This document shows positions 46,259-64,000 of a stretch of DNA of 64,000 nucleotides, piece by piece. The stretch spans positions 1,236,657 through 1,300,656 of the forward strand of contig NZ_VCNI01000001.1 of assembly GCF_005937185.1 (NCBI RefSeq), in the 5' to 3' direction. Numbering within the stretch: the stretch's first letter is position 1; each line of letters begins with the position of its first letter. This DNA is from Flagellimonas algicola (GTDB lineage Bacteria; Bacteroidota; Bacteroidia; Flavobacteriales; Flavobacteriaceae). The position numbers and the translations under genes were made by a program. Under the pieces are notes generated by a model. It saw nothing but the letters and a program-made list of their open reading frames with translations. It did not search any database and was not told the origin of the DNA.

Positions 46259-47845
46259 TTAGAAATTAGGTCCTCCGGTATCCCACCAGAGTCGCGTTCC
46301 TATTTCATCGGGGCCACCTAACTTAGCAGTTGCATCAGCAACACCTTCGGGATTGTTTTCCCGCTCGCTGTTGATAAATGTCATTCTTCTTAAGAAATCA
46401 TCGTCTGCGATAACCCCCCAATCCGAGTTACTATCGTTCTGATAGTTAAACGGAAGTTTAGGATAATCGGTTCTACGATGATCTACCCAAGGTTCCATGG
46501 AGTCTGTATAAGCAGCAATCCACTTTTGAGTAATGATTTTCTCCAATTTAGTTTCATTATCAGCAGCTTCATCCCAAGCTATCGTATTGGTTATTCTATT
46601 CGTAAAGGCATTAACACCTGCATCTGCTTTGGGGTCCGTATAGTCCCATGGAATGTTGGTATTATCAGCCAGATAGTCATCAACTCCACCAACGCCCCAA
46701 AGATCAAATGAGGTACGGACTCCCATTTCATAATTTGTCCCGGCATCTCCAGCCCCAGCCCAACCACGTAATGCAGCTTCTGCCATTAGGAAATATACTT
46801 CATCAGCGCTAAACATTTTACGTTCAGTTACATCTCCGGGATCATTAAATGAAAGATCAATGGTGGAATAACTCAAGCGGTCATCCTTGGCCACCAGGCT
46901 AGCTCCATTGCGGATTCCCTTGTATGGGAAATCTGGGTGATCCGCCACAACAGCGGGATCGGTTGCCTCATCAAAGAAGGCAGAAACCCTCGGGTCTGCG
47001 TATCCACCTAAAATGGATTCCATACTTGCACTCATACGGGTATCGTTCCACTCGAAGCAGATAACCGCTGGGTGGTACTTTCTTCCATAGTTGGAGATAT
47101 TAAAGTTTTCCGCATTGGTCATAATAAGCCCTGCAGAATCTGCCAAAGCTTTTTCTCCCTCAGCTTGTGCCTTGGCTGGATCTACTTTGGAAATCCTGAT
47201 GGCCAGGCGAAGTCTTAAAGAGTTTGCCAATTTGGCCCACAGTTCAGTACTACCGCCATAACTGGCATCAAAGGAAGCAAAACCTCCAAACTCGGGATTG
47301 GCTTTCAGCACCCCTATGATGCGATCCAAATCCGAAAAGAAGGCATTATAAAGTACCTGCTCGCTGTCATACTCCCCAGTTTTTCCCAAACCAAATTCCG
47401 TATAGATAATTGGTCCTTGATATACTGTCAAACGGTGCATAGAAAGAATTTTGATCAAATTGGCCAATTCAACAAACACTTCATTGCCTTCCCCTTGATT
47501 GGCAATATCGATTACCTGGTTGGCAGGGGCCATTACGTTGTTGTATTGTACGGTCCAGTACCTATTCCAACGTAAATAATAGGTGGTATTGTTTACTCCA
47601 CCAACGAAAGGGGTAGGCGTTGCCAAATGCCTGGCATAGGAATCATTGGTCAAATTATGGTCTATCTGAATACCATAAAGATTTGACAGCAAGCTCGGGA
47701 AGAAGGCACCAATACTGTTAAAATCCTGCGTCAATGACTCGTCGGAAATTTGGTATGGATTGGTATTGGTCTCTTCAAAGTCACTGGTACAGGCACCTAG
47801 TGCCACTACCATTGATAATATATATATATACTTCTTCATATCCAT
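46259..47845 (-). CDS. susD: SusD/RagB-family outer-membrane glycan-binding lipoprotein
   Basis: 528 residues. The signal peptide ends VALGAC, a lipobox. NTNPYQ, WTVQYNNVMAPANQVID and NSLRLRLAIRISKVDPAKAQA are typical SusD/RagB helices, and DEVYFLMAEAALRGW is the conserved TPR-like C-terminal helix. SusD binds glycan at the cell surface and hands it to SusC. It follows susC by 3 bp (stop to ATG). Two ATGs (47845, 47839) are possible. Confidence 0.93.
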   Translation of the reverse strand: MDMKKYIYILSMVVALGACTSDFEETNTNPYQISDESLTQDFNSIGAFFPSLLSNLYGIQIDHNLTNDSYARHLATPTPFVGGVNNTTYYLRWNRYWTVQYNNVMAPANQVIDIANQGEGNEVFVELANLIKILSMHRLTVYQGPIIYTEFGLGKTGEYDSEQVLYNAFFSDLDRIIGVLKANPEFGGFASFDASYGGSTELWAKLANSLRLRLAIRISKVDPAKAQAEGEKALADSAGLIMTNAENFNISNYGRKYHPAVICFEWNDTRMSASMESILGGYADPRVSAFFDEATDPAVVADHPDFPYKGIRNGASLVAKDDRLSYSTIDLSFNDPGDVTERKMFSADEVYFLMAEAALRGWAGAGDAGTNYEMGVRTSFDLWGVGGVDDYLADNTNIPWDYTDPKADAGVNAFTNRITNTIAWDEAADNETKLEKIITQKWIAAYTDSMEPWVDHRRTDYPKLPFNYQNDSNSDWGVIADDDFLRRMTFINSERENNPEGVADATAKLGGPDEIGTRLWWDTGGPNF

Positions 47846-47848
47846 TTT

Positions 47849-50800
47849 TTAAAAAGTTACTTTAAGGTTCAGTCCATAATTCCTTGTGGAAGGTAGATTG
47901 AAGTTATCGAGGCCTACAGAATTTCTATTGGTACTCATGGCCAATTCTGGATCAAAGGGTGCTTCCTTCTTCAAGAAGAACAAGTTATTGCCAATAAAGG
48001 ATATGGAGGCTGATTGTATGAAGGGCATATTCAGTTTTTTCAAATCAATATCATACCCCAAAGACATCTGTGCCAATCTAATATTGGTCCTGTCGTACAC
48101 ATATGCTTCACCAACACCATTACGATCACCAAGGAAACGGAACCAGGACTCTGGATTCACACTGGTGACTGGTTCTCCTGAAGATTCACGTACTCCATTT
48201 ACCGCCACACTTCCTGCATCACGGGCGTCTGCTGTACGCTGGGAAACCCCTGCTCCGTCCAGCATGGATTCGGTCTGGCTAAATACTTTGCCTCCAAACA
48301 CTCCGTTAATCAAGGCGCTGGCATTCCATCTTCCAAAGGATACCGTATTGTTCCAACCCAAGGTAAAGTCTGGATCCAAATTACCAATAAGTTCCTGATC
48401 CTGGGTTCTTAAAGGTTCGGGGTCTGTTACATCATCATCAAAAAGTATTCTTCCTTGATCGTCCCTACGGAATTTCAAGACATAAATATCATTGAATCGC
48501 CCTCCCTCAACTAATCGAGAACTATAGCCTTCAGATGATCCAAGATTCACCACCCTTGAATCATCTGGTCCAATATCCACAATCTCACTTCTATTTCTTG
48601 TAAAGTTAAATGCCGTATTCCACTCCAAGTTGTCATTGCGTATGGGCGACCCATTCAGGGAAATCTCAACACCTTTGTTTACAATTTCACCAGCATTAAT
48701 GAACTTTCTTGTATATCTACCTTCTGATTCTGGGTCTGAAGCATCCAATGGAACAGGAACAAATTGATCTGTACTCTTGATATGGTAATAGGTAAAGTCA
48801 ATTCCCAATCTGTTGCTAAAAAAGCGCCAGTCAGCTCCAATTTCAGTACTGGTAATGATTTCAGGTTTGGCATCGAGAAAAGGCTTGTCCGTATTTCGTT
48901 GTAAAGTTCCATTAGCATCTACAATGCTGCTGCGTGGACTGATTCGGTTGAAAGGTACCTCATTGGCTACCTGGGTTCTGGAAACTCTAAACTTGGCAAA
49001 ACTAATAGCCTCTGGCATTTCAAACATTTCACTAACAATAGCAGTTAAACCTACGGATGGATAGAAGTAGGAATCATTTCCTGTAAGGGCCAAGGTAGAG
49101 GCCCAATCGTTTCTTCCACCCAAATCCAAGAACAGCATTTCTTTATAACCCAAAGTAGCATTGGCAAACAATCCCTGCTTTTTAATGACCCCATTGGTAA
49201 CGGATTCAACTGGTCTTTGTGTCAACTCTAAATTCTGAAAATTGAACTCATTTGGATAAATGAGACCATTACCACTACTTGGGGTAACTCGTACTCCATC
49301 GCCATAATCCGTTTCCGTGTAACTACCTCCCACAAGTGCCGTTAGACTAAAGTCTTCCGACAGGTCGGAATCATAGGTTAAAATAGCATCGGTATAGATC
49401 AAACGATCTTCGTATTTATGGTAATCCCAAGTACCATTTCTATTTACATTAGTAGTGTTGGAAGTAGCTGCATGGCGTTGCTCACGTCTAACATTGGCAT
49501 AATCGTAATTACCCCTAACCTGAAGATTAAGTGCATCCATAATTTGATAGTTCAATGTCAAATTAGCAATTACCCTTCTATTGTTCTGTTCCCTGGGTTG
49601 GTTGTTAATAATCCAATAGGGATTGGATTGGTGGTGATCTTCAACAAACCAATTCATTGTGTAAAGATTTCGTCCAACATCAAATATTTGATAATTAACT
49701 CGGGTATCCTCAAAATCACGTTCACGAGGAAAGAAATAAAGTCCAGTCAACGGATTTAGGTAATATCCTGAAGGCAATCTATTCTCCGAATTCTCTATGG
49801 ACAAGATGATATTTGAACTTACAGTCAATTTATCATCCAATAGTTTGGTAGACTGCTTAAAGGACATGTTGTTTCTAGAATACGTATTATCAGGAGTAAT
49901 TCCAGTGGCCGTGGTGTTGGAATACGAGAAATAAGCCGTAGTCTTGTCGTTTCCACCACTTATGGAAAGTGAATTAATAAAGTTGGCACCGGTGGAAAAG
50001 AAATCATCCACATAGTTACTGGCATAATTACCGGGCGTGGTGCTCCAGCTTTCTTTGGCTCCATCAACTGCTCCATACTTAAATTGTAAATCTGGTGTCT
50101 CAATAACACTTTCAAAAGTAACACCAGAGTTAAGGGATACCGTAGTTTTTCCAGCCTGTCCTTCTTTAGTGGTAATCAATACAACCCCATTAGCACCAGC
50201 ACTTCCGTAAAGTAGGGCCGCGTTGGCACCTCTTAGGATACTGATACTTGCAATATCATCTGGGTTTAAAGCTGATATCCCGTCCCCGGAATCAGTTCCA
50301 CCCCACATTCCTGGCTGATTGCCCCGGTTGTTGGCCAATGGAATACCATCGATTACGAATAAAGGAGTACTATCACCTTCAAGTGATTTGTTACCTCTCA
50401 GTACAATTTTGGTGGATCCACCTGCACCTGAGCTACTTTTCTTGATTTCCACACCAGCGGTTTTACCGTTGATACTATTAAGGAAGTTAACGTCTCTTGT
50501 TTTTGTAATTTCATCGGCGCTTACAGTTTGTTGGGCATAGGTCAGGGTTTTTTCTTCCCTTTTGATACCCAAAGCGGTTACCACCACTTCTCCTAATTGC
50601 TCTGCGTCCTCACCCATTGATACATTAATGGTTGATTGCCCGCCTACAGCAACTTCTTGAGCTGTGAAACCTAAAGAAGTAAACACTAGTACTGCACCAC
50701 TTGAAACCGAAATGGTATAGTTTCCATCAAAATCGGTAGATGTACCGTTTGAAGTTCCCTTTTCTACAACGTTTACCCCGGGTAAAGGTGATCCCGCGTC

Positions 50801-51214
50801 ATCCGTAACATTTCCTGTCACGGTTTGTTGAACAACTTTTTCAATAATTTCGGGAGTTGCTTCTTCGAGTCTTGGCGTCACAGCAATGGTGCTGTTCATC
50901 CTTCTAAAATTCAAAGATGCTTCTTTACTTATCTGCTCCAATAAATCATAAACTGAATGTGTTCCCAGGGCAATTTGGAACTTGGTCCTCCTGTTCACGT
51001 CATTCTCATCATAATTGAATTTGAAAGCAGATTGGTTCTCGATTTCCTCAAAGACATCCAATACCTTCACCTGTCGGTCTGAGTTCCACTCAAGGTAGGT
51101 GTCTTTCATACTTTGCGTATACCCCTCATTGGCCATTGCAAAATAGCAGAACACCATTTGCAAAATAAATATCCTAGAGAGCATAGCGACTGTTTTAGAT
51201 AGTTTAAATTTCAT
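47849..51214 (-). CDS. susC: SusC/RagA-family TonB-linked outer-membrane protein
   Basis: 1121 residues. A signal peptide leads to an STN domain (about 40-112; VKVLDVFEEIENQSAFKFNYDEND), a carboxypeptidase-like domain (TGNVTDDAGSPLPGVNVVEKG), a plug with LRGNKSLEGDSTPLFVIDGIPL, and a beta-barrel ending NLKVTF. The STN domain usually signals to a FecR/ECF pair, and one is encoded just upstream. It transports oligosaccharides across the outer membrane together with SusD. Confidence 0.95.
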   Translation of the reverse strand: MKFKLSKTVAMLSRIFILQMVFCYFAMANEGYTQSMKDTYLEWNSDRQVKVLDVFEEIENQSAFKFNYDENDVNRRTKFQIALGTHSVYDLLEQISKEASLNFRRMNSTIAVTPRLEEATPEIIEKVVQQTVTGNVTDDAGSPLPGVNVVEKGTSNGTSTDFDGNYTISVSSGAVLVFTSLGFTAQEVAVGGQSTINVSMGEDAEQLGEVVVTALGIKREEKTLTYAQQTVSADEITKTRDVNFLNSINGKTAGVEIKKSSSGAGGSTKIVLRGNKSLEGDSTPLFVIDGIPLANNRGNQPGMWGGTDSGDGISALNPDDIASISILRGANAALLYGSAGANGVVLITTKEGQAGKTTVSLNSGVTFESVIETPDLQFKYGAVDGAKESWSTTPGNYASNYVDDFFSTGANFINSLSISGGNDKTTAYFSYSNTTATGITPDNTYSRNNMSFKQSTKLLDDKLTVSSNIILSIENSENRLPSGYYLNPLTGLYFFPRERDFEDTRVNYQIFDVGRNLYTMNWFVEDHHQSNPYWIINNQPREQNNRRVIANLTLNYQIMDALNLQVRGNYDYANVRREQRHAATSNTTNVNRNGTWDYHKYEDRLIYTDAILTYDSDLSEDFSLTALVGGSYTETDYGDGVRVTPSSGNGLIYPNEFNFQNLELTQRPVESVTNGVIKKQGLFANATLGYKEMLFLDLGGRNDWASTLALTGNDSYFYPSVGLTAIVSEMFEMPEAISFAKFRVSRTQVANEVPFNRISPRSSIVDANGTLQRNTDKPFLDAKPEIITSTEIGADWRFFSNRLGIDFTYYHIKSTDQFVPVPLDASDPESEGRYTRKFINAGEIVNKGVEISLNGSPIRNDNLEWNTAFNFTRNRSEIVDIGPDDSRVVNLGSSEGYSSRLVEGGRFNDIYVLKFRRDDQGRILFDDDVTDPEPLRTQDQELIGNLDPDFTLGWNNTVSFGRWNASALINGVFGGKVFSQTESMLDGAGVSQRTADARDAGSVAVNGVRESSGEPVTSVNPESWFRFLGDRNGVGEAYVYDRTNIRLAQMSLGYDIDLKKLNMPFIQSASISFIGNNLFFLKKEAPFDPELAMSTNRNSVGLDNFNLPSTRNYGLNLKVTF

Positions 51215-51260
51215 ACTTTTACATCGGTTTAGTTGATATACTTTAATTGAACTTTTGATG

Positions 51261-51308
51261 ATAAGTTTGTCTCCATCGAAAGTGCCATTTTCTTTGGAGC
51301 AAACTTAT
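51261..51308. repeat. Inverted repeat in the susC upstream leader
   Basis: ATAAGTTTGTCTCC (51261-51274) and GGAGCAAACTTAT (51296-51308) pair with one unpaired base, with a 21-nt loop. The left arm's outer part reads TAAGTTTG, and the right arm's minus strand reads the same, a match to the -7 element TAnnTTTG. The second copy (51300-51307, minus) is placed well to drive susC. Confidence 0.65.
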
Positions 51309-51387
51309 TTTTTACGGGTAGCATTTCATTTTCATACGTTTAAGTTTTAGTGGTTATTATTTCAAATTGTTTAAGTTCTAATTTTCA

Positions 51388-52419
51388 CTATTTAAAATAG
51401 ATCGTTATCTCTCTTTCATTTTCCTCATTTATCCTAAATGAAAATTTTTCAACGAAAGCGATTCTCTCCAACACGTTTTCCAAACTTTCGCTGGGAAATT
51501 CACCAGTATAGGTGACACGTCTGTTCAGATTGCGTACTGTAATGTCAACGTCGTACCAGTTTTCCAAGGTCTCCTCAATTTCATCAAAACCAGCAGCTTT
51601 AAAGACCAGAGTTCGCTTGGTCCATTTATAAAAGTCCATGTCGGCATAGGCCGAAAAATTCAATTCCCCATCATCTGAGGTAAAAGTGGCCTTCCCTCCT
51701 GGGCTGTCAATGATTCCAACTTTCTTGTCTTCAAGTACAGGGGCTACTGAGATTTTACCTTCCACCAATCCAACTTCCACTTTCTTTCCCTTATGCGCTT
51801 TAACATTAAAAGCTGTACCCAAAGCCCTGGTCACCAATCCGTTGGATTTAACCAAAAAAGGTTTGGCAGGATCCTTTTCCACCTCAAAGTAGGCCTCGCC
51901 CTCCAAATAAACTTGTCTTTCATTGACAAATCTGGAGGCATATTTAATCCTACTATTATTATTAAGGTATACGGTTGTACCATCGGGCAGAGTAATTCTG
52001 GACTTTTTTCCCCTTAGGTTTTCCTTTTCCAAATAGGAAATGGACTGGGTGGTCGGCATCAGCTCAGTTGTTGCGGACATCCGCATTCCTATGACTAAGC
52101 CGAAGAACAACAATCCACATGCTACCAAAGGAAGTATGAAGGCCATTAGGTTATTCCCATTGTTTTTTGGAATGAGATTTCTTTTGCCCAAAATGGACGT
52201 CAAAAGTTCTTCCCTTGCCTTGTCATCCAAATCATTGTCCAGATGAAAGCTAAGGGAAAGAAGAATCTCCTTGGCTGCCAAAACTATTTCCCTTTTTGAA
52301 GGGTTTGCAGCCAACCAGTTTTTCCAGAAAAAATGCGAAGATCTATTTGGTTTAATTACCCAATCCCTAAATTCGGAATTAGCTAAAAAATCCTCAAGTT
52401 CATACTCGTGATAGTCCAT
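51388..52419 (-). CDS. FecR-family anti-sigma factor
   Basis: 343 residues from ATG 52419; I rejected the 24-residue N-terminal extension because its start lies in the promoter-like region. An N-terminal helical region (sigma-binding), one membrane segment (LMAFILPLVACGLLFFGLVIG, about 98-118), a FecR domain (RITLPDGTTVYLNNNSRIKYASRF) and a C-terminal DUF4974 domain are seen. The protein takes the signal from the susC STN domain in the periplasm and controls the sigma factor. It ends about 170 bp before susC. Confidence 0.92.
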   Translation of the reverse strand: MDYHEYELEDFLANSEFRDWVIKPNRSSHFFWKNWLAANPSKREIVLAAKEILLSLSFHLDNDLDDKAREELLTSILGKRNLIPKNNGNNLMAFILPLVACGLLFFGLVIGMRMSATTELMPTTQSISYLEKENLRGKKSRITLPDGTTVYLNNNSRIKYASRFVNERQVYLEGEAYFEVEKDPAKPFLVKSNGLVTRALGTAFNVKAHKGKKVEVGLVEGKISVAPVLEDKKVGIIDSPGGKATFTSDDGELNFSAYADMDFYKWTKRTLVFKAAGFDEIEETLENWYDVDITVRNLNRRVTYTGEFPSESLENVLERIAFVEKFSFRINEENEREITIYFK

Positions 52420-52622
52420 TTGGTGTTCTCCTGTATTATAAAGACTTAAGAAAAGGTTAAATGACATCAAAAAAAATTGCCTTTTTTGCAAAAATTTAAG
52501 ATTTATGTTGTCATTTTATATGTTTCCTTAATGTTAACTATTGATTATTAAGCAACTACGATTTTTTATGGGAAATAAAAAAAGTTGCTAGAAATTTGAA
52601 TTAAACAGCACTGAACAGCGCT

Positions 52623-53273
52623 TTACCCTATTTTTTTAGGTTCCCCCAAAATTTCAACCTGTTTTTTTAACTCTGTCAAGGATCTATAAATTAAGTTTCG
52701 GGCCGCCCTTACACTGGAAAAACCCATTACATCCTTTATTTGGGAATATGTGAGCCCATTATAATAAAGGTAATATATCGCCTCTCTTTGCCGTCGGGTT
52801 AGTTTGTTCAGGGAATCTTGAATCAATTTGATTTGATCTGCCTCAAAGCGCCTATTGATCAGGACACTTTCATGTGACGGGGTCAAATGGAACGCGTAGG
52901 GTGTTGCTGAAAAATTCAAGGTCATATTCTTTTTCCGCTTCTTCTGTTCGGATAGAATGTTGTTCCTATAGCATTTGATCAGAAATGCCTTTGCAGAAAC
53001 CACTTTATGAAGTTTGCTCCTTTTTTCCCTGATCGTGATAAACGTTTCCTGCAGTACATCCTTCAATAATTCAGTATCTCCAGAGAATTGTCTACCTAGA
53101 TTGTAGAGCATATGGAAATAGTGATTGTAGATTTTTACGAATGCAGCTTCGCTACCGTCACAAAACAATTTCCATTCCTTGGTCGCATCAAAGTTACAGG
53201 TATCCGATTTTACTTTCGAATTGCCGGTTATCCGATGAATTTTTGCAGCTGCACTAAAGTTAGGTGAAGCCAT
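52623..53273 (-). CDS. ECF RNA polymerase sigma factor (Bacteroidota sigma-70 type)
   Basis: 216 residues. Region 2 (AFVKIYNHYFHMLYNLGRQFSGDTELLKDVLQETF) and region 4 (LNKLTRRQREAIYYLYYNGLTYSQIKDVMGFSSVRAARNLIYRSLTELK) are clear. It lies 204 bp before the FecR start and should drive susCD when released. A TTAG tetranucleotide run sits in its leader (53277-53290). Confidence 0.93.
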   Translation of the reverse strand: MASPNFSAAAKIHRITGNSKVKSDTCNFDATKEWKLFCDGSEAAFVKIYNHYFHMLYNLGRQFSGDTELLKDVLQETFITIREKRSKLHKVVSAKAFLIKCYRNNILSEQKKRKKNMTLNFSATPYAFHLTPSHESVLINRRFEADQIKLIQDSLNKLTRRQREAIYYLYYNGLTYSQIKDVMGFSSVRAARNLIYRSLTELKKQVEILGEPKKIG

Positions 53274-53395
53274 GTTAAGTTAGTTAGTTAGTTGTAGTTG
53301 TTCAGTTTGTTGCCTAAAGTCTTCCTCTATTTTTTATGGGATACTTTATTGACGACCTGAATTGTACACATATAAGGTACTCAAAAAAAAGGTCA

Positions 53396-54856
53396 TCAAA
53401 GATCAATTTTGCTATTAGTTTTATTATTTATGTTTTCTGTTGGGGCTTTTGCACCCAATTTTGCTTTCACTTTTTCCATTTCTTTCATTAGCTCTCCAAG
53501 CTTTTCAGGATGTGCTTCTGCCAAGTCGTTCTGCTCCCCGATATCCTCTTTTAGGTTGTACAGTTCTGCTTTATTCCCCTCATAGAATTGAATCACTTTC
53601 CAATCTCCTTTTCTAAGGGCACATCCAGGAGTCCATGCACTACCATGATAGTGTGGGAAATCCCAAAAAAGCACATCATGAACCTCTTCTACCCCATTCT
53701 CCCATAACCCACTAAGGTCCACTCCGTCCTGATGCTGTTCCGGTCTTGCCTCCAACTTCAATGTATTAAGGACTGTGGGGTACAGATCCATACTATTTAC
53801 CGGAGCTTCTATAACCAATCCCTTGTCGGCACCAGGCTTTTTGATGATCAACGGGATTCGAATGCCTCCTTCATAGGCCCATCCTTTACCGGCACGCAAG
53901 GGCAGAACATCCGTGGGTGCTACCCTATTTGCATTGGCCACGGTTGACAAGCCTCCGTTGTCCGAGGTAAAAACCAGTAGCGTGTTGTCCATCAAATCCA
54001 GTTCTTGCAATCGGTCCAATATCCTTCCAACATTTTCGTCCATGGCATAAACCATGGAAGCATATTCCGCATTGGTTTGACCTTGTGTGGTGTAGCCCTG
54101 TCCTTCACTGGCAATGTGTGGAATGGAATCGGCAAGCGTTTGTCGTTTTATCCTGAACTTTTCCAAATGCCTTTTACTGGCTTGAATTGGAGTGTGGACG
54201 GTATAAAAGGATAAGTACAATAGAAACGGGTTCTCTTGATTGGCTTCCATGAATTCTAAGGATTCGCCCACCAATCTATCCGTTAAGTACTCCCCTTCCG
54301 GACCATCTGAAAGTCTTGGATTTTTATAGGGTGAGTAATAGCCTCCCGGAGGTTGCCCCATATGGTGCCCTCCTTTGTTTATATCAAATCCCTGGTCTTC
54401 CGGAAAAAACCCTTCATCCCCCAAATGCCACTTCCCGGCAAAAAAGGTCTGGTATCCTTTTTGCTTCAGGGCCTCGGCCCAAGTTGTTTCTTCCAAGGGT
54501 AATTGATGCAAATCATTGGGTCCCAAAAGCGTCCGGTCTTTAGGGTCAAATCCTGGAATCCAATCCGTTATTCCAACTCGCGTAGGATGTTTACCTGTCA
54601 AAATTGCGGCCCGAGTTGGGGAACAAACCGGACTTGCGGCATAGGCGTTTGTAAAAACGGCACTTTTTTGGGCTAGTTTGTCAATGTTGGGAGTCTCGTA
54701 AAATGTGCTGCCATAACAGCCCAAATCTTTCCACCCTAAATCATCCACCAAAATAAACACAACATTCGTCCTTTTGGCCATTGTTTTTTGGTCCGATTTG
54801 CACCCGACCAACAATGCCGTAAGACATATTGTTATTTTGATGGATTTTATTATCAT
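53396..54856 (-). CDS. Sulfatase (family S1), lipoprotein
   Basis: 486 residues. The signal peptide ends LLVGC. VCSPTRAAILTGKHPTR gives the formylglycine site C78-S-P-T-R, the Cys type that needs an FGE/anSME maturase, and LVDDLGW and FTSDNGG hold metal-binding Asp/Asn residues. It removes a sulfate ester from a sugar; subfamily and position are not readable. It follows the EEP hydrolase (60 bp gap) and shares its operator-bearing promoter region. A sulfated glycan substrate for the region is indicated. Confidence 0.93.
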   Translation of the reverse strand: MIIKSIKITICLTALLVGCKSDQKTMAKRTNVVFILVDDLGWKDLGCYGSTFYETPNIDKLAQKSAVFTNAYAASPVCSPTRAAILTGKHPTRVGITDWIPGFDPKDRTLLGPNDLHQLPLEETTWAEALKQKGYQTFFAGKWHLGDEGFFPEDQGFDINKGGHHMGQPPGGYYSPYKNPRLSDGPEGEYLTDRLVGESLEFMEANQENPFLLYLSFYTVHTPIQASKRHLEKFRIKRQTLADSIPHIASEGQGYTTQGQTNAEYASMVYAMDENVGRILDRLQELDLMDNTLLVFTSDNGGLSTVANANRVAPTDVLPLRAGKGWAYEGGIRIPLIIKKPGADKGLVIEAPVNSMDLYPTVLNTLKLEARPEQHQDGVDLSGLWENGVEEVHDVLFWDFPHYHGSAWTPGCALRKGDWKVIQFYEGNKAELYNLKEDIGEQNDLAEAHPEKLGELMKEMEKVKAKLGAKAPTENINNKTNSKIDL

Positions 54857-56128: not shown

Positions 56129-57013
56129 CTAGAATTTTAATTTTTCATCTTTGTCCCACAAGCCCCAATAGGCGCCAACATCTCCCTCGGCCCCTACCTT
56201 CCATGACTCGTCAAAAGACGAAAAATAGAATATTTCAATATCTTCTTCCATGGACCATTTTTGAGTGTTCATAAAGTACTTTAGGGCATTCTCGTAGGAC
56301 GGAAAAGCTCCTTCCAGATTGGTGCCCTGACTAGGCCAACCTGTTTCTGATATAATCACTTTTTTACCATTTCCTGCCCTTAGTGCTCGCTGATACATAT
56401 CCTTCATGTACAACAGGGAATAATCCAGATCGCACCCTTCCCAAAATGGGTAACAATTGGCCAATATCACGTCACACGCATCTGTAATTCTAGGGTGATC
56501 TGTAAATTCATAATAGGCATCCACATAGCCAACGGTCACATTTGGAATGGCATCTTTAACCAGATAAATAAAATCTAATAATTGCTCTTCCGTTAAGTCT
56601 CCCCGGTACATCACTTCATTTCCAACCGCAGCAATATCAACATAACCTTCGTTGGCCAATTTGATGAGCCCTGCGATTTCCTTTTCGTTGATTTCTGGGT
56701 TATCGCCCAACCATGCACCTACCATAGTCTTTATACCATATTCTTTTGCAATTCTTGGTATTGCCTCATTGCCGTCTGTACAAGAGAAAGACCTAATCCA
56801 CTTGGTATACGGCTTAATAATTTTCATGCGACGATGGATCTGCTCTTCAGAAATCTGATCTCCAGGTTGCTGATTTTCCAAATACGGACTAAAACAAAGA
56901 CCATGCATACCTTCTTTTAAAATTTCCCTACACAGTAGCTTTAGTTCCTTTTCACTTTTCCCAGCATAATCCAATGAAGCTAGATTAAGAAATCGTTCTG
57001 CTTTATACGACAT
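56129..57013 (-). CDS. GH17 beta-1,3-glucanase, cytoplasmic form
   Basis: 294 residues. The acid/base glutamate is E133 in VGNEVMY and the nucleophile is E223 in ISETGWPS; both fit GH17. WLGDN and YPFWEGCDLDYSL are further family features. There is no signal peptide, so the enzyme should be intracellular and act on imported short beta-1,3-glucans. Most bacterial GH17 of laminarin loci are exported, so this location is of note. It is last in the beta-glucan operon, 108 bp after the small membrane protein. Confidence 0.88.
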   Translation of the reverse strand: MSYKAERFLNLASLDYAGKSEKELKLLCREILKEGMHGLCFSPYLENQQPGDQISEEQIHRRMKIIKPYTKWIRSFSCTDGNEAIPRIAKEYGIKTMVGAWLGDNPEINEKEIAGLIKLANEGYVDIAAVGNEVMYRGDLTEEQLLDFIYLVKDAIPNVTVGYVDAYYEFTDHPRITDACDVILANCYPFWEGCDLDYSLLYMKDMYQRALRAGNGKKVIISETGWPSQGTNLEGAFPSYENALKYFMNTQKWSMEEDIEIFYFSSFDESWKVGAEGDVGAYWGLWDKDEKLKF

Positions 57014-57121
57014 AGTGGTCTTCGATTTTGTTTCGTATTCCTTAGTTAGTTTTGCTTCCTTTTAACTGATGGGCTCATCCTTTTTCCTTCGGATCCCATT
57101 CTAACCGTAATTAAACAGTAA

Positions 57122-57757
57122 TTAAAAAACACCTCTACAGTTTTTACTGGTGTAAATCACAAGACGCTCCAGTTCTTTCGCTCCAGCCGGCATTTCTTCC
57201 AATTGTAAGCCGGGGTATTCATCCTTTTCCTTCCAATTGGCTATGGTGGTACTGAAAAATGAGGAAGCCGCAGCATTTGCTTCATATATGATCAAATCAT
57301 ACGCTTCTCCCTTGTCCCCTCCAAATCGGGTAACAACCTGCCATTCCCCATCTCTTTTGTATGATGTATTGGTGTGATCGGATTGTGGATAATACCGGTC
57401 ATCGGTGGGTCTGATGACGACCCAAATATCTTTGGTATGACCCTTGGGGTAGACACCCATGGTCAAAATGCGACAATCCACAGAATCTTGCGCGATTGGC
57501 GACACCACCTTTACCACATCAACGGGACCGCTTACCTTTAATTTATTACCAATGGAAACTTGCTCCATTTGCGTATTAAAGTTTACAAGTTCCGACGAAT
57601 AACTACCGTACATAACCATCAAAACTCCAATGATTCCGAAGAACATTACCAGCTTGCTCCCGAGAAATCCCTTATCCGAGCTTCCTGTTCTATTGCCAAG
57701 AATGGCAATGACCACAAGCAAAATCCCTACTGATATAATTATTAATTTCGTTGACAT
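57122..57757 (-). CDS. Small membrane protein of unknown function in the beta-glucan locus
   Basis: 211 residues. Two N-terminal hydrophobic segments (about 4-20 and 32-52) are followed by a soluble part of about 155 residues with VSIGNKLKVSGPVDVVKV and a Trp/Tyr-rich stretch (WVVIRPTDDRYYPQSD). I recognise no domain. It sits 37 bp after the sugar symporter and 108 bp before GH17, and is probably co-transcribed with them. Possible roles are transport accessory or envelope sensing, but nothing in the sequence decides. Confidence 0.65.
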   Translation of the reverse strand: MSTKLIIISVGILLVVIAILGNRTGSSDKGFLGSKLVMFFGIIGVLMVMYGSYSSELVNFNTQMEQVSIGNKLKVSGPVDVVKVVSPIAQDSVDCRILTMGVYPKGHTKDIWVVIRPTDDRYYPQSDHTNTSYKRDGEWQVVTRFGGDKGEAYDLIIYEANAAASSFFSTTIANWKEKDEYPGLQLEEMPAGAKELERLVIYTSKNCRGVF

Positions 57758-57794
57758 CTTATTGTTTTTTTCTATTAATCAATCTTCCAAAACC

Positions 57795-59225
57795 TTATAA
57801 AACTCCTCTTCTTTCTTCCAATTGTGCTTTAATATCTTTTGCTCTTTCTTCAGACAAGCTGTATTTCCACATCACCCAGATAGCCAAACCGGCGGTAACT
57901 ACAGGAATAATAATATCTGCTATTCTTAATTTGGTCAAGGTTTCTACCGTTTGGGTGGCCGCGTTCCCATCAAACCCAATAACCTTTAAAACCAAACCTC
58001 CCAAAACCAGCGCCAAGCCCTGACCGAGTTTCACAACCCACCAATACAATGCGCCAAACGTCCCTTCTTTTCGAGGCATGCCATTTCTAAGTTCGTCCAA
58101 ATCACACACGTCAGCCGTCATACTCATCATTAATGTAAACAAACTTCCCAAACCAAATGACATCAATGGAATAGGAATGAAAGATAGCCAAATGTTATCT
58201 GGGGTGAATGCCCACCATTTCATGAGATATCCAACAATGGACAAGGCCGTTGAAATAATAAAAGCCTTCTTTTTACCCCATTTGGTTGCCATTGCAGATA
58301 CAATCGGAATCACTAAAAATGCCGATACCAATGCACCGATGGAGCTAAACCAAGCTGGCCATGTGGCAGTGGCTTCGTAGCTTCCATTAAAAATGTAAAA
58401 AACGAAGATGAAAAAACTAAAGGATGCCACAATTTGATACCCATTGAATACTAAAAAAGTAGCGCCACACAATTTCATAAAGGGCCTATTCTTTACAGCT
58501 TCTTTTATGCTGACAAACAAGTCTTTTAAATTACTAAATATGGAGGTAAAGGTTAGCTTTTTCCTGTTTCCCATATGGGATGCATCCATACCCCTACAAA
58601 AAATGGCCGGCAATAGTCCAAGTAGCAAACATGCCGCCCCTACATATATGGCCATTGTTCGTACCCCTTCAGCTTGATTACTAAAAACATCAGGGTCTGC
58701 AATGATTACCCAAAACCAAGGAACAATAACCCAGGCCAATAACCCCACGGTTTGCGAAAATGCCATTAAACGTGTCCGCTCGTTATAATCAGAAGTCATT
58801 TCGTAACCCAAACCTACCAATGGGGTGGCAAACATGGTATTTCCAATTAGAAAAACCATCGACATGATAAGGAAGTACCAAAAATTATAGTCTGAGGAAT
58901 TGCCTTCATCAAGTTGCCAAAGCAACACAAATGTAATGGCACTTAGAATCCCCCCAACAAAGATATAAGGTCTCCTTCTACCCCATTTTGAGCTTGTGTT
59001 GTCTGAAATAAACCCCATAATTGGATCGGTGATGGCATCAAAAAATCGAGGTAATCCCCCTAAAAGTCCTGCCAAAAATGGATCCATGCCAAATGCAGTC
59101 AATAGAAAGAACATAAAGAATCCCAAAGCACCGGGATATAAGTTCAAAACCAAATGCCCTGCTCCAAAAGCGGCTTTTTGTCCCAAGGGGACCCTATCTG
59201 TTTTGATGGTCTTTACGTTTGACAT
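57795..59225 (-). CDS. GPH/MFS-type sugar:cation symporter
   Basis: 476 residues with about 12 hydrophobic segments. DAITDPIMGFISDNTSSKWGRRRPYIF is the signature of the glycoside-pentoside-hexuronide symporter family. LFTLMMSMTADVCDLDELRNGMPRKEGTFGA is the matching second conserved block. It should bring small beta-glucans or glucose-type sugars through the inner membrane. It starts 30 bp after the GH30 stop. Confidence 0.88.
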   Translation of the reverse strand: MSNVKTIKTDRVPLGQKAAFGAGHLVLNLYPGALGFFMFFLLTAFGMDPFLAGLLGGLPRFFDAITDPIMGFISDNTSSKWGRRRPYIFVGGILSAITFVLLWQLDEGNSSDYNFWYFLIMSMVFLIGNTMFATPLVGLGYEMTSDYNERTRLMAFSQTVGLLAWVIVPWFWVIIADPDVFSNQAEGVRTMAIYVGAACLLLGLLPAIFCRGMDASHMGNRKKLTFTSIFSNLKDLFVSIKEAVKNRPFMKLCGATFLVFNGYQIVASFSFFIFVFYIFNGSYEATATWPAWFSSIGALVSAFLVIPIVSAMATKWGKKKAFIISTALSIVGYLMKWWAFTPDNIWLSFIPIPLMSFGLGSLFTLMMSMTADVCDLDELRNGMPRKEGTFGALYWWVVKLGQGLALVLGGLVLKVIGFDGNAATQTVETLTKLRIADIIIPVVTAGLAIWVMWKYSLSEERAKDIKAQLEERRGVL

Positions 59226-59254
59226 AATTGTTGTTTTAGTTAGTATTAGCTGGT

Positions 59255-60757
59255 TTAACCTTTATCAGATTCGTTAGGAATAACGATAGTTTGCAAGGAT
59301 TTACCATGTATCTTGATTGGTATTGTATTTTCATCCAAAACCAATGAAAAAATTTTAGCTTCCGAATGTTCGTTTAAAATAATGACTGCAATGTTGCCAT
59401 CAGGATTCTTTACCGCAGTGACCTGTAAATCACGATTTGAATTTTCAAATCCAATCCGTATGGCGCCGGGGCGTATATACCTACTGAAGTGGATCATTGT
59501 ATAATACAAGGGGGTAAAATAAACCTCGTCCTTGGTTGGATCAACTATAACTGGCGCTACACACCAATTTTTGAACCAATTGGGGCCGCCCTGCCTGTCC
59601 AAAACCATGTTCCAATCAATCCAGCCGTCCACCCAGTTGTTCAAACATCCAATAATATCCCGGGCATATCTGAAGACCGGCACATATTTGGGATGCATGT
59701 GCTTGTCTTTCTCCGGTGCCCAGTCCCATCCCCAATCCGTTGCTTCTTTGGACCAATACCAGGTATCATCCTTCCACTTGGGTATCTGAGCATCCACGCA
59801 GGCCTCCGATTGAATTAGGTGCTTGTTTGGAGCTTTGTTATGGGCATACCGCAAGGCATCTGGGAATACTTCAAAAGTACTGGCGTACCAATGAATGGCA
59901 GTACCGTCATAGTACTTGGAACTTTCCTCAGATTGGAACATTTCATCCACCCAATCCTTCAAATGTTCCCGGTTTTGGTCGTATCCCAGTATTTTGATGT
60001 GGCTCTTGCCCTCTGCCTCTAATTTTGGGCCTAAAAAGTGCTGTACAAAATGAGTCATTTCAGCAGGCGAAAAGTGCATACTTTCCCAATTATTATCGTT
60101 GCCCAAAGGTTCATTCTCCACGGTAAAACCCCAGATATCGATACCTTCAGCTTTGTATGCATCCACATATTTGGAAAAAAAGAGCGCCCAGGTATCGTAA
60201 TAATCTGGCAAAAGCTTGCCTCCCCGCCAATCTTTATTGTCTTTCATCCATGGCGGAGCAGTCCAAGGGGAGGACAATATTTTAAATCCATCCTTAGACG
60301 CCATCATGGCTTTTTTGATCATGGGGATAATATCGTCCTTGTCCGCTTCGATGGTAAAATGTTCGAGTTGCACATCTCCTTCCACCGGTGCGTAGGAATA
60401 GTTACTCAAAGAAAAATCGCAGGAATTCATATGAGTCCGGGTCAGCGAATATTGCGCTCCATCGGGTCCAAAGTAAGCGTCAATGATTTTTCTTCGATTT
60501 TCCTCACCCATTTGATTAAGCAAAGAAGCTGAAGATTCAGTAAATGAACCCCCAAAACCGGTAATTGTTTGGTATTGATTATCTGGTAAAAGTATGATTT
60601 TGGTACCATCCCCAACTTTATTAATTGGTAGGACTGGAGACAATTTATGACCTTCTTCAGAAGTCTCATAAATCTCCACCTCCAAGTGTTTTGTATTACA
60701 TGATATTGCCATTACCAATACTATGGTTAACATTAAAATTTTACCAAATAGCCTCAT
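59255..60757 (-). CDS. GH30 beta-glucanase/glucosidase lipoprotein
   Basis: 500 residues. The signal peptide ends VMAISC (C20), a lipobox. The TIM-barrel is followed by a short beta-domain; E216 in VENEP is the acid/base and E318 in IQSEAC the nucleophile of GH30. TGFGGSFTESSA and SSPWTAPPWMKDN are classic family blocks. GH30 of laminarin loci cut beta-1,6-branches (GH30_1/_3), so debranching fits here, but the subfamily is not readable. Anchored at the cell surface or in the periplasm. Confidence 0.92.
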   Translation of the reverse strand: MRLFGKILMLTIVLVMAISCNTKHLEVEIYETSEEGHKLSPVLPINKVGDGTKIILLPDNQYQTITGFGGSFTESSASLLNQMGEENRRKIIDAYFGPDGAQYSLTRTHMNSCDFSLSNYSYAPVEGDVQLEHFTIEADKDDIIPMIKKAMMASKDGFKILSSPWTAPPWMKDNKDWRGGKLLPDYYDTWALFFSKYVDAYKAEGIDIWGFTVENEPLGNDNNWESMHFSPAEMTHFVQHFLGPKLEAEGKSHIKILGYDQNREHLKDWVDEMFQSEESSKYYDGTAIHWYASTFEVFPDALRYAHNKAPNKHLIQSEACVDAQIPKWKDDTWYWSKEATDWGWDWAPEKDKHMHPKYVPVFRYARDIIGCLNNWVDGWIDWNMVLDRQGGPNWFKNWCVAPVIVDPTKDEVYFTPLYYTMIHFSRYIRPGAIRIGFENSNRDLQVTAVKNPDGNIAVIILNEHSEAKIFSLVLDENTIPIKIHGKSLQTIVIPNESDKG

Positions 60758-60781
60758 TGCGTCAAGTTTCTTTGTTCAAGT

Positions 60782-62074
60782 CTATTGGGCTACCGTCTGT
60801 TCTCGTTTCAGCGGGGGAACAAGTACATCCGTCATAAGGGCTTCCAAATTTCCATTATACGTCTTGGTTATTGGATTTCCGTTGCGGGTCAACCCATCAA
60901 ATACCCCTTGATCCACTAAATCCCAAAGGGCATATTTGGCTTGACCTTCCAGGGTAAAGAGACCAAAATGGTTTTCTGAGCCTTGTTTGTTATGGGCATC
61001 TTTCCATTTTTCATTGAATGCTTCAAAATAGAAACAGGAAATTCCAGCCTTATTGGTCCATTCGCGCATATGTTTATGATACAAAGCCTCTTTAAACTCA
61101 TCAGTGGCCTTGGAACCCTTGGGTCCATATTGTCCGTTGGAAACTGTGGCCCATCCTGTTTCACCAATGTGAACCGGTTTATCAACACCCAAACTTTTCA
61201 TGTGCTTGGTCACAGCTTCGTACTGAGACATTGCAAATGATTTTGCCCTTAGCATCGCGCCTTCAATTTTGGCTATATCAACTAGCTTTTCCTCATCTTC
61301 AGGAACGCCCCAGAATGCCGGATTATAGTGCGTATTGTGATACGCATATGTGTGCATGGAAATATAGTCCACCGCCTTGATCAGTTCTTCCAAATCCTTG
61401 GTATGGTACTCCGGGTCTCCCCCACCCCAAGAAGCAAAATCATCCGAGCTGGTAATCCATAAATTTTTAGGAAGCTTTCCTTCTTTCTTAAGCGCTTGCA
61501 AATGGTTCACCCATTTTAGTATAACACTCGGCTGCACATAATAACTTGTGGCCCATTTCACCATGGCCTCATTGCCCACTGCAACTATTTTTACAATGTC
61601 CGGGTATGCATTGGCCAATGCCACCGCCCTGCCAATTTCTGCTTCGTTCTGCTCACTTTCCACAAGGTGATCCGGCTCCTTGTCCGTCCATGCATTTTTA
61701 CAGTCTATCCATGCTCCCAGCATCACATACATTTCAAAGCTGGAATCCTCCTCCTTCATTTCCCGAATGGCCTTCAATAAGTTGGAAGCCTGTTGTAACT
61801 GCACGTTATAGGTACGCACAATTTTAATGCCCATGGCCGATAACAATCGCATGTCTTCCTTAAGTTCCTCCAAGGTTGGTTGAACATCTCTGGAAATTGC
61901 CCTGTATCCGCCGTAGGATATGGCCGTAAATTCTGGATTGCCTAAAATATCTTTCGCTGTCACTTCTTGAGGTGTTTGGGATTGATGATCTTCTGTACTA
62001 TTTTTTTTCTCCTTGCAAGCGTGGGTCACCAAGATGACCAGAAATACAAGAAACAATTTTATTGCTGACTTCAT
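60782..62074 (-). CDS. GH17 beta-1,3-glucanase, lipoprotein form
   Basis: 430 residues. Signal peptide ending LVTHAC (C20), a lipobox. E169 in VAVGNEAM is the likely acid/base and E305 in GETGW the nucleophile. The chain is longer than the cytoplasmic GH17 at 56.1-57.0 kb and quite different, so not a recent duplicate. It should cut beta-1,3-glucan outside the cytoplasm. It lies 24 bp before GH30. Confidence 0.9.
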   Translation of the reverse strand: MKSAIKLFLVFLVILVTHACKEKKNSTEDHQSQTPQEVTAKDILGNPEFTAISYGGYRAISRDVQPTLEELKEDMRLLSAMGIKIVRTYNVQLQQASNLLKAIREMKEEDSSFEMYVMLGAWIDCKNAWTDKEPDHLVESEQNEAEIGRAVALANAYPDIVKIVAVGNEAMVKWATSYYVQPSVILKWVNHLQALKKEGKLPKNLWITSSDDFASWGGGDPEYHTKDLEELIKAVDYISMHTYAYHNTHYNPAFWGVPEDEEKLVDIAKIEGAMLRAKSFAMSQYEAVTKHMKSLGVDKPVHIGETGWATVSNGQYGPKGSKATDEFKEALYHKHMREWTNKAGISCFYFEAFNEKWKDAHNKQGSENHFGLFTLEGQAKYALWDLVDQGVFDGLTRNGNPITKTYNGNLEALMTDVLVPPLKREQTVAQ

Positions 62075-62090
62075 AATACGATTTTTTCAT

Positions 62091-64000
62091 TCATCTTAAT
62101 CGATCCTGTTTAAGGTTAACAATGATGCACCTGATCTCATCGCATCTGTTAAACAGCTCCTTACTATGCTTTAAGTCAAGACTTAGTGAATCAAAACTAG
62201 TTTTGCTGTTGTTTTTATCCAGTACAACCACGGTTTCTTCATCCGAAATATTATAAATGATAGGAACCTGGCAATACGTAAAGCATAGGGCATCCTTTTC
62301 TATCTGTATTTCCCTTAGCTGGGCATTCACATCCACAAAACGGAAGCTAGCGGGTGATTCCAAAAACTCGCTCTTTCTAAGCAATACCGGGTCAAATTTG
62401 AGTTTCCCTCCATCTACAAAAACTCCCAATTCGCCAAACCTGCTCAAAATATCCTCCTTTACCTGCCCTGTCATTCCTGGTTGCTGAGCTCCTTTGCCCG
62501 CAGGAGTATGGGAATACGGATCGGTGGGAAATGCACCATACAGCTCTGGGGATTTGTGTACCCCGATTCCTTCATTGATTTCATAAAAATGTTCCAGTAA
62601 TTTACCAACAACAATATCGTTGGCACTTTGTTTTATGGCTTCCACTGAACATTCCATGACGGCCAACAGTAATTTGGACACCATATGCCAATAAATGGAG
62701 CCTAGGCCCTCGTATCCGTAAAATGTACCAGATCTTCCGGTGAATGCCTTGTGGTTAAATACCTCTTCAAAAATTTGGTGCAGTAGTTCAGAATCTTTTT
62801 CCGCGAGTTTGGCATAAGTCGTATCCGACAAAGTCTGTAACGCTTCTTCCAAGTCTGCAGCATTTTTAAAATCTCCATTAAAATGATAGGCCCCATTGAT
62901 ATCTTTTTCAATAATTTTTAGATTGTCGTCATGTACCAATGCTGACAGCAATTCTGAGGTTTTGACCTGCCCATCTGGAATGGTGTTTTTATCCATGAAT
63001 GAAGGCAAATCTTTGTTCGGATACAGTAAATAACTATACTGGTCCGGTCTGAACAGTTTGCTCTTTTTTAGTCCATCCAATACCTCCAAGTATTGTTCTG
63101 GTGTTAGGTAACCAGAACTTAACACTGCAACCTGTCCTTCCAGCATTTCGCTCAAATAGGAAATGGAAGCGGTATCATTTTCATTTATTGTCATCAAGTT
63201 ATAGGCATGGTACATGCCATCCTGTCGTTTATTGGCAATGATGGAATGTTCCAAAAATTCCAAGGCAACCGATACAGTATGTTTTAGGTCATTCAACGAG
63301 AGCACGGATTTTTGTCCCGAAAATGAATTTTCGTAAATGTTTGATCGGAACAAGCTTCCAGCCTGACCCAATTGTGCTACAATTAGGTATCGCTCCTTGT
63401 CTTCTATACTTTCTGAAAGTAAATGGCGAAAATCATCCAGGCATTTGGCAATATTTACAAAAAACTCGCCTACCTCATTCGAAATAAGGATTTCCTTGAC
63501 TTCAGACCCGTCAAGCAATTCTTCGAAGAACTTTAGAAACCTCCTCAAATAATACAAGGTAACCATGGACACCCCGTTGCCGACAAGGGCGTTGTTCGCA
63601 TCATTCCATTCAGGGCGTTGGGTATTCATCCATATCCCACCTTCTGGTACTAGGTTGGACAATTTGGACAGTACCGTTGCCAATATTTTTTCCAAGAAAT
63701 TGGCTCGATGTATGGTAAGGTTGCCGGTCGTCAGCAAAGCTCCATCCGCCCCCAGTTTGGCTCTTCTGTTGCGAATGCTCTTATCCAGCTCGTCATCAAA
63801 CTCAATAGTATCCTTTGGATTCTTTACAATATCTTCAAAACTCTTGATTTTGTAAGGCACATTGGCATATACAAAGAGATCCTTATCAAAATAACGCTCT
63901 AATTTACCCGGATAATGATCTTGAACAAACTCCAAGAATTTCAGCAAATAAATGATTTGATGATCCCCCCAATACCCAATATATGACCATGGATCATCCG
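62091..64000 (-). CDS. Large phosphorylase-like enzyme of the beta-glucan locus (partial)
   Basis: The frame is open to the right edge (about 635 residues visible; the N-terminus is outside). The TTG at 63947 sits in the middle of the reading frame; in-frame codons before it read WSYIGYWGDHQIIYLL, so it is not the start. The body is helical with FYGYEGLGSIYWHM, PTDPYSHTPAGKGAQQPGMTG and RFGELGVFVDGG, resembling the (alpha/alpha)6 COG3459/GH94-GH149 type glucan phosphorylases. Beside GH17 and GH30 genes a beta-1,3-glucan phosphorylase (GH149) is my best guess, not certain. No signal peptide can be judged. Confidence 0.6.
   Translation of the reverse strand, partial: DDPWSYIGYWGDHQIIYLLKFLEFVQDHYPGKLERYFDKDLFVYANVPYKIKSFEDIVKNPKDTIEFDDELDKSIRNRRAKLGADGALLTTGNLTIHRANFLEKILATVLSKLSNLVPEGGIWMNTQRPEWNDANNALVGNGVSMVTLYYLRRFLKFFEELLDGSEVKEILISNEVGEFFVNIAKCLDDFRHLLSESIEDKERYLIVAQLGQAGSLFRSNIYENSFSGQKSVLSLNDLKHTVSVALEFLEHSIIANKRQDGMYHAYNLMTINENDTASISYLSEMLEGQVAVLSSGYLTPEQYLEVLDGLKKSKLFRPDQYSYLLYPNKDLPSFMDKNTIPDGQVKTSELLSALVHDDNLKIIEKDINGAYHFNGDFKNAADLEEALQTLSDTTYAKLAEKDSELLHQIFEEVFNHKAFTGRSGTFYGYEGLGSIYWHMVSKLLLAVMECSVEAIKQSANDIVVGKLLEHFYEINEGIGVHKSPELYGAFPTDPYSHTPAGKGAQQPGMTGQVKEDILSRFGELGVFVDGGKLKFDPVLLRKSEFLESPASFRFVDVNAQLREIQIEKDALCFTYCQVPIIYNISDEETVVVLDKNNSKTSFDSLSLDLKHSKELFNRCDEIRCIIVNLKQDRLR

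Follow-up and report, generated by a model that had tools for sequence, protein, structure and literature searches.

A 64,000-nucleotide stretch of the Flagellimonas algicola genome (contig NZ_VCNI01000001.1, C1:1236657-1300656; hereafter the window) ends within an operon-like array of 12 co-directional genes on the minus strand, separated by intergenic gaps of 4-217 bp. In operon order, these genes encode a propeller/LuxR regulator, a protein in which an enzyme domain is joined to a predicted outer-membrane beta-barrel (the enzyme-barrel fusion), a lipoprotein termed lipo468, a glycoside hydrolase of family 16 (GH16; other families are abbreviated likewise), a PKD lipoprotein, a sugar porter, a GH149 enzyme, a GH17 lipoprotein, a GH30 enzyme, a GPH-type symporter, a small protein and a GH17 enzyme without a signal peptide. 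The operon reaches 13 kb past the GH149 gene, and five genes of the locus together with the regulator lie outside the window; coordinates above 64000 are extended window coordinates taken from the whole genome. The operon is of the laminarin (beta-1,3/1,6-glucan) utilisation type of a Muricauda/Flagellimonas-like flavobacterium, and its gene content supports the initial annotation, made from the window sequence, of a beta-1,3-glucan (laminarin-type) locus with inner-membrane sugar transporters. That annotation also described the locus as lacking SusCD, which is borne out across the 22.8 kb upstream of the GH149 gene, where no susC-susD pair was found, placing the locus outside the strict definition of a polysaccharide utilisation locus (PUL); a SusC/SusD pair 5 kb downstream looks like part of a different locus. 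The laminarin cluster is mostly of published type. The enzyme-barrel fusion, as the possible basis of a SusCD-free locus, looks to be the new part, and no description of such a fusion was found in the literature searched, most subscription papers and supplements being outside the scope of that search.

The fusion gene (72490-75762) corresponds in position to the published 'GH2' and encodes 1090 aa from its first ATG, with a probable start at Met30 and a signal-like N-terminus (signal peptides and N-termini were judged by eye on translations throughout). A scan of named genomes returned at least 553 relatives, of which the best 80, nearly all from Flavobacteriaceae genera, were kept; among these, the nearest belong to Allomuricauda/Flagellimonas, with a best identity of 96%. 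At one locus (L064, G061:C1:1624682-1627854), the fusion is split into open reading frames (ORFs) of 296 and 754 aa by a frameshift or sequencing error. Pfam identified only a GH2 TIM barrel in the fusion (PF02836, 26.5 bits against a cut-off of 21), and NCBIfam gave weak GH2 matches and a TonB-receptor model at 14.7 bits in the barrel part, against a cut-off of 323.75. GH2 enzymes carry sugar-binding and immunoglobulin-like (Ig-like) domains ahead of the TIM barrel; no Pfam match to these domains was found in the fusion, whose TIM barrel begins shortly after the signal peptide. Foldseek searches with the N-terminal domain (N-domain) placed GH158 structures at ranks 1 to 6, while in VIA the Z scores of a GH5 mannanase (26.6), GH158 (26.4), GH157 (25.4) and human beta-glucuronidase (25.4) spanned about one unit. 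Identity to the GH158 structures is 13-15%, and profile matches to them are weak (6PAL, E 2.5e-6; 9ORO, E 2.1e-4). A catalytic Asn-Glu and a second Glu are invariant in 49 sequences and in 19 diverse sequences; the N-domain has the fold and the catalytic Asn-Glu/Glu of BuGH158 (PMC7157763; like the other papers cited, represented here by part of its text), with GH5, GH157 and GH2 scoring similarly. The sequence and the modelled fold suggest that the N-domain is an exported clan GH-A enzyme, close in fold to the GH158 endo-laminarinases and probably active.

A full-length model of the relative at locus L119 (96% identical; 49 relatives aligned) shows a TIM barrel and, after it, a series of long antiparallel strands, and the C-terminal 640 residues folded alone (80 relatives) gave about 24 membrane-length strands by manual count, with a predicted local distance difference score (pLDDT) of 72.2 and a predicted template modelling score (pTM) of 0.72. 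All 50 rows listed by Foldseek for this barrel model are outer-membrane barrels, including BtuB3, chitoporin, MOMP, ZnuD, AlgE, maltoporin and ushers. The best VIA match was the PapC usher (Z 13.7, root-mean-square deviation 5.0, 371 residues aligned), with OccK, AlgE and MtrB near and the mitochondrial VDAC also among the 50 rows listed; by sequence, no solved structure matched the barrel at E up to 1. The amphipathicity of the strands, calculated over 26 strands of the full-length L119 model, is 2.51 against 1.49 +/- 0.21 for shuffled sequences, none of 2000 shuffles reaching as high, and is 1.15 for the strands of the enzyme domain. No TonB plug (PF07715) was detected in the fusion by Pfam up to E 1, in the same search in which a SusC of the window matched at 4.6e-17, and by its sequence the barrel is not a TonB-dependent transporter. 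The C-terminal half is thus predicted, with good support from modelling, to be a plug-less outer-membrane beta-barrel of about 24 strands. This barrel is kept at 54-63% identity across families, and no stand-alone copy occurs among the 36 matched genomes of the 395 described below, all matches of at least 590 residues lying in frames of at least 1028 aa.

The distribution of the fusion was examined in one draw of 120 genomes at the family level and one draw of 395 genomes at the phylum level. GH149 is present in 39 of the 120 family-level genomes and the fusion (at least 67% identity, fragments counted) in 22, all of which have GH149 except for one that holds a fragment of the fusion (21/22; exception G048). 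At the phylum level, GH149 was found in 70 of 395 genomes and the barrel part in 36, with 34 strong matches (E < 1e-90) and two weak ones (G237 and G378). Strong fusion genomes encode GH149 in 33 of 34 cases, the exception (G351) again being a fragment, compared with 37 of the 361 other genomes. The fusion or its tail shares a contig with GH149 in 32 genomes; in G421 the two are on separate contigs, with the fusion at a contig end. The linkage of the fusion to GH149 is therefore well supported.

Around the best 80 named relatives, lipo468 directly follows the fusion in all 77 loci with room for it, GH16 is within 5 kb in 69/69, GH149 is within 10 kb in 53/61, and the regulator (75980-78793 in the present locus) is directly upstream in 44 of the 66 loci with 9 kb of upstream sequence. 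Twenty fusion loci from other families have lipo468 next to the fusion in 19 cases and GH16 in all 20; GH149 is within the stretch read in 17, and about 11-15 kb off on the same contig in the other three. No SusC was found in these 20 distant loci within stretches of about 8-9 kb on either side of the fusion, nor by Pfam among ten of their large ORFs, a check made since the SusC profile had been built from Flavobacteriaceae.

A comparison of sister loci indicates which position the fusion occupies. The 39 GH149 loci of the family-level draw and the locus described here make 40, of which 35 have at least 10 kb of upstream sequence (G047, G057, G062, G082 and G103 were left out). Thirteen of these 35 have the fusion without SusC, six have SusCD and then the fusion, 12 have SusC without the fusion, and four have neither. 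The two arrangements share one slot, in the orders regulator-SusC-SusD-PKD-GH16 and regulator-fusion-lipo468-GH16-PKD, and the fusion, which fills the SusC-SusD slot of sister loci, bears on how sugar may enter without SusCD. A stand-alone homologue of the N-domain (333-349 aa, mostly lipoprotein-like, 25-32% identity), putatively a related enzyme made as a separate protein, occurs in 12 of the 40 GH149 loci (10 of the 35) and beside the fusion in none of the 40.

To find SusC proteins of the laminarin type elsewhere, 38 whole genomes were searched using a laminarin-locus SusC as query, with at most 21 candidates scored per genome. The mark for this type was at least 45% identity, set after the SusC proteins of the slot were seen to be mostly at least 43% alike; two of them (G032 and G034) fall below it, so the mark is imperfect. 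A SusD seed from the window matched nothing but itself, and SusD was sought instead with a profile derived from the ORFs behind SusC. All six SusCD-type control genomes contained a laminarin-type SusC (48-62% identity). None was found in the 20 distant fusion genomes, where the best identity was 40%, or in the genome of F. algicola, where the best was 36%. A search for a second laminarin PUL in this genome returned three GH16 genes; the one next to a SusC, described below, does not show the GH16-GH3-GH16 arrangement of laminarin loci, and a second such PUL may still exist.

The placement of the lipoproteins is suggested by their N-termini. In Bacteroidota, an acidic run after the lipid-bearing Cys is a signal for export of lipoproteins to the cell surface. 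In the present locus, the GH16 (70190-71038), the PKD lipoprotein (67258-70173) and lipo468 (71071-72477) carry such a run; in lipo468 the Cys is followed mostly by Glu-Arg and then by Ser and acidic residues, a stretch that fits surface export and so makes lipo468 a likely surface partner of the fusion. The GH30 and the GH17 lipoprotein are more likely periplasmic because they have no acidic run, which renders doubtful the proposal of the initial annotation that branched glucan is debranched outside the cell.

From these observations, the enzyme-barrel fusion is proposed to carry out the outer-membrane step in a laminarin system that lacks SusCD, with lipo468 as its partner at the surface, a reading to which we assign a probability of roughly 0.55. 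Transport of sugar through the barrel is inferred. The GH16 at the surface would cut laminarin, and the PKD lipoprotein and lipo468 would hold the pieces, which would pass the barrel of the fusion and be trimmed on arrival by the fused enzyme facing the periplasm. Both ends of an even-stranded barrel face the periplasm, and the enzyme, being the N-terminal part of such a barrel, most likely sits under the pore on the periplasmic side. Since no plug domain was found, transport would be TonB-independent. The GH30 and GH17 lipoprotein would debranch and shorten the pieces in the periplasm, and the two major facilitator superfamily (MFS) transporters would bring the oligosaccharides into the cytoplasm, where GH149 would phosphorolyse them to glucose 1-phosphate and the cytoplasmic GH17 would release laminaribiose and rearrange the chains. 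A broader proposal, which is tentative and on balance doubtful, is that this represents a phylum-wide TonB-independent route by which beta-1,3-glucan crosses the outer membrane of Bacteroidota. A single polypeptide would then serve as the channel and as the glucanase on its periplasmic side, drawing the sugar in by cleaving it as it emerges; lipo468 would act in the manner of SusD, and SusCD would have been gained or substituted within the Flavobacteriaceae.

Several observations weigh against the fusion as the outer-membrane step. The full-length L119 model is poor (pLDDT 68.5, pTM 0.46), making the mutual placement of the two halves unreliable, and the barrel model reaches only low TM-scores against solved barrels (0.24-0.40, by query length), for which reason no single solved relative is named. 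The arrangement is also not exclusive: SusCD stands beside the fusion in the six of 35 GH149 loci given above, a same-strand SusC lies upstream in 20 of the 66 named fusion loci, and a laminarin-type SusC is encoded outside the locus in two of the 12 family genomes whose locus has the fusion alone (G002, 58%; G019, 68%). The barrel might instead only anchor or display the glucanase at the outer membrane and conduct little, with oligosaccharides entering through general porins. Glycosidases anchored in the membrane are frequent in loci of this kind, the N-domain appears competent for catalysis, and its lipoprotein-like stand-alone homologue in SusCD-type loci implies that the enzyme can work without a barrel. 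A conserved barrel of some 24 strands that is never found apart from its enzyme would, however, be a costly device where a lipid anchor would do, and it occupies the place of SusC in loci otherwise without an outer-membrane transporter; anchoring alone is accordingly considered somewhat unlikely.

It is less probable still that uptake relies on an ordinary SusC-SusD system elsewhere in the genome or 5 kb downstream, leaving the fusion as an accessory enzyme. The downstream SusC/SusD pair (46259-51214, minus strand) is on the same strand as the locus, however it adjoins its own genes for an extracytoplasmic function (ECF) sigma factor, a likely anti-sigma factor and a sulfatase, and the region as a whole (46259-54856, minus strand) is probably a locus in its own right, directed at a sulfated substrate. 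Five SusC proteins of this genome are 33-36% identical to a laminarin-locus SusC and, even at no more than 36%, such proteins could still serve uptake; one of them (G000:C7:984456) lies beside a GH16 gene. Its SusCD locus (L231:2117-15503, minus strand) also holds GH26, GH43, a beta-helix protein and a sugar porter, neighbours that suggest another substrate, perhaps xylan, and the SusC proteins of laminarin loci are mostly at least 43% alike, G032 and G034 being the exceptions, a level reached by none in this genome. The initial annotation had located what is unusual about the locus elsewhere, in a soluble GH17 hydrolase inside the cell beside a phosphorylase, which it regarded as departing from the common design. 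The genes are present as described, but that combination is published and conserved (PMC13188888; PMC5827456) and recurs in most loci examined here. The order GH17A lipoprotein-GH30-MFS-GH17B is kept in all Muricauda clusters examined in the first of these papers, most of them with GH149, and the second describes proteobacterial type II GH149 clusters with a 'cytoplasmic GH17 (COG5309)' and an MFS transporter (pfam13347). As the GH17 moreover looks like a transglycosylase, this explanation of the locus is very improbable.

The GH17 enzyme in question (56129..57013; PF00332, 51.8 bits) has no export signal on its translated N-terminus as judged by eye. It carries E133, Y136, R137, W191, E192 and E223, matching in numbering those of the characterised beta-1,3-glucanosyltransglycosylase MlGH17B, which has a catalytic Glu pair together with Tyr, Trp and Glu residues needed for transglycosylation (PMC11005184), and its best solved relative is the beta-1,3-glucanosyltransferase 4WTP (E 1.5e-34). 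Because the transglycosylation residues of MlGH17B are kept, it is probably a glucanosyltransglycosylase of the MlGH17B type that releases laminaribiose, and not the plain hydrolase first assumed.

The large enzyme, of which the window holds positions 62091..64000 and cuts off the remainder, is 1158 aa at full length, with a TTG start (62091-65567). It was initially labelled as phosphorylase-like and of COG3459 type. Its full sequence matches the GH149 equivalog NF058639 over residues 21-1152 (1785.8 bits against a cut-off of 1150) and the solved beta-1,3-oligosaccharide phosphorylase 6HQ6 over residues 21-1157 (1605.5 bits), identifying it from sequence as a full-length GH149 beta-1,3-glucan phosphorylase. 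The phosphorylase assignment has thus stood, whereas an identity as a COG3459/GH94 cellobiose phosphorylase is ruled out by the same two matches; with the family assigned, the suggestion that part of the sugar is phosphorolysed is possible. An ORF of 576-607 aa is found at the usual place of GH149 in seven loci (L121, L122, L129, L132, L147, L162 and L168), and is perhaps the GH3 that PMC13188888 reports as replacing GH149 in some clusters.

The remaining genes identified in the window from its sequence, on the minus strand, are confirmed by their Pfam families and lipoboxes. The GH17 lipoprotein (60782..62074; PF00332, 34.6 bits; lipobox VTHAC) is in the position of MlGH17A. The GH30 lipoprotein (59255..60757; lipobox MAISC) matches PF02055 (237.8 bits) and PF17189 (49.5 bits), and is not an endo-1,6-beta-glucanase of the BT3312 type according to NF053856 (242.5 bits against a cut-off of 700). 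The GPH-type sugar symporter (MFS_2; 57795..59225) matches PF13347 (219.5 bits) and falls below the cut-off of TIGR00792 (204.5 against 231.35 bits); the sugar porter is encoded at 65572-67113. In the loci of G025, G026, G069 and G102 (L051-L052, L106-L107, L078-L079 and L082-L083), the MFS_2 ORF is 781-815 aa compared with the usual 476 or so, possibly representing MFS-enzyme fusions like FbGH17B. Between the symporter and the GH17 gene, a 211 aa protein with hydrophobic N-terminal stretches (57122..57757) has no Pfam match above cut-off and no NCBIfam family; it is also present in the G006, G034, G044 and G050b loci.

Laminarin is among the largest marine carbon flows, and its uptake by Bacteroidota is usually seen as the work of SusC/SusD, whose expression has been used as a field marker for this process (PMC6298971). 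If part of the phylum uses the fusion instead, counts based on SusC/D would overlook these cells, and the annotation 'GH2' would conceal a transporter. The fused enzyme and channel would also offer a simple system in which to ask whether hydrolysis drives or gates the entry of sugar without TonB.

A glycosidase under an outer-membrane barrel, as proposed here, has a counterpart in synthase-dependent export pairs such as PelA/PelB, in which a glycosidase of the periplasm is paired with an outer-membrane porin; these are separate proteins that export the cell's own polymer, whereas the fusion is a single protein in a degradation operon. The Formosa laminarin PULs share the substrate and enzyme families of this locus and include a transporter-glycosidase fusion, the inner-membrane MFS-GH17 protein FbGH17B, however they have TonB receptors and SusD, and in F. 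algicola it is an outer-membrane barrel that is fused, to another enzyme family (PMC6246565). The endo-laminarinase BuGH158 (6PAL) has in common with the fusion a clan GH-A TIM barrel, the Asn-Glu/Glu residues and a beta-1,3-glucan locus, but carries an Ig-like domain where the fusion has its barrel, and acts alongside SusCD (PMC7157763). Bacteroidetes GH149 genes were reported in 2018 both in PULs and in carbohydrate-active enzyme (CAZyme) clusters lacking susCD (PMC5827456), and their genomic context was given again in PMC6484121. These clusters share with the present locus GH149 together with GH16/GH17/GH30 and transporters, some without susCD; unlike here, no outer-membrane route is proposed for them in the portions of those papers available. 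The closest known system is the Muricauda laminarin PUL with MlGH17A and MlGH17B (PMC13188888; PMC11005184), which has the same kinds of gene, the final four being arranged identically. The Muricauda clusters comprise LuxR, GH2, GH16, PKD, GH149 (GH3 instead in some), a GH17A lipoprotein, GH30_1, MFS and a GH17B without signal peptide, and their GH30 is said to have no signal peptide, whereas that of F. algicola has a lipobox (PMC13188888). The 'GH2' of these clusters is termed a GH2 beta-glycosidase in the portions of that paper available, which mention neither a barrel nor a role in transport; in F. algicola, the gene at this place encodes the enzyme-barrel fusion.

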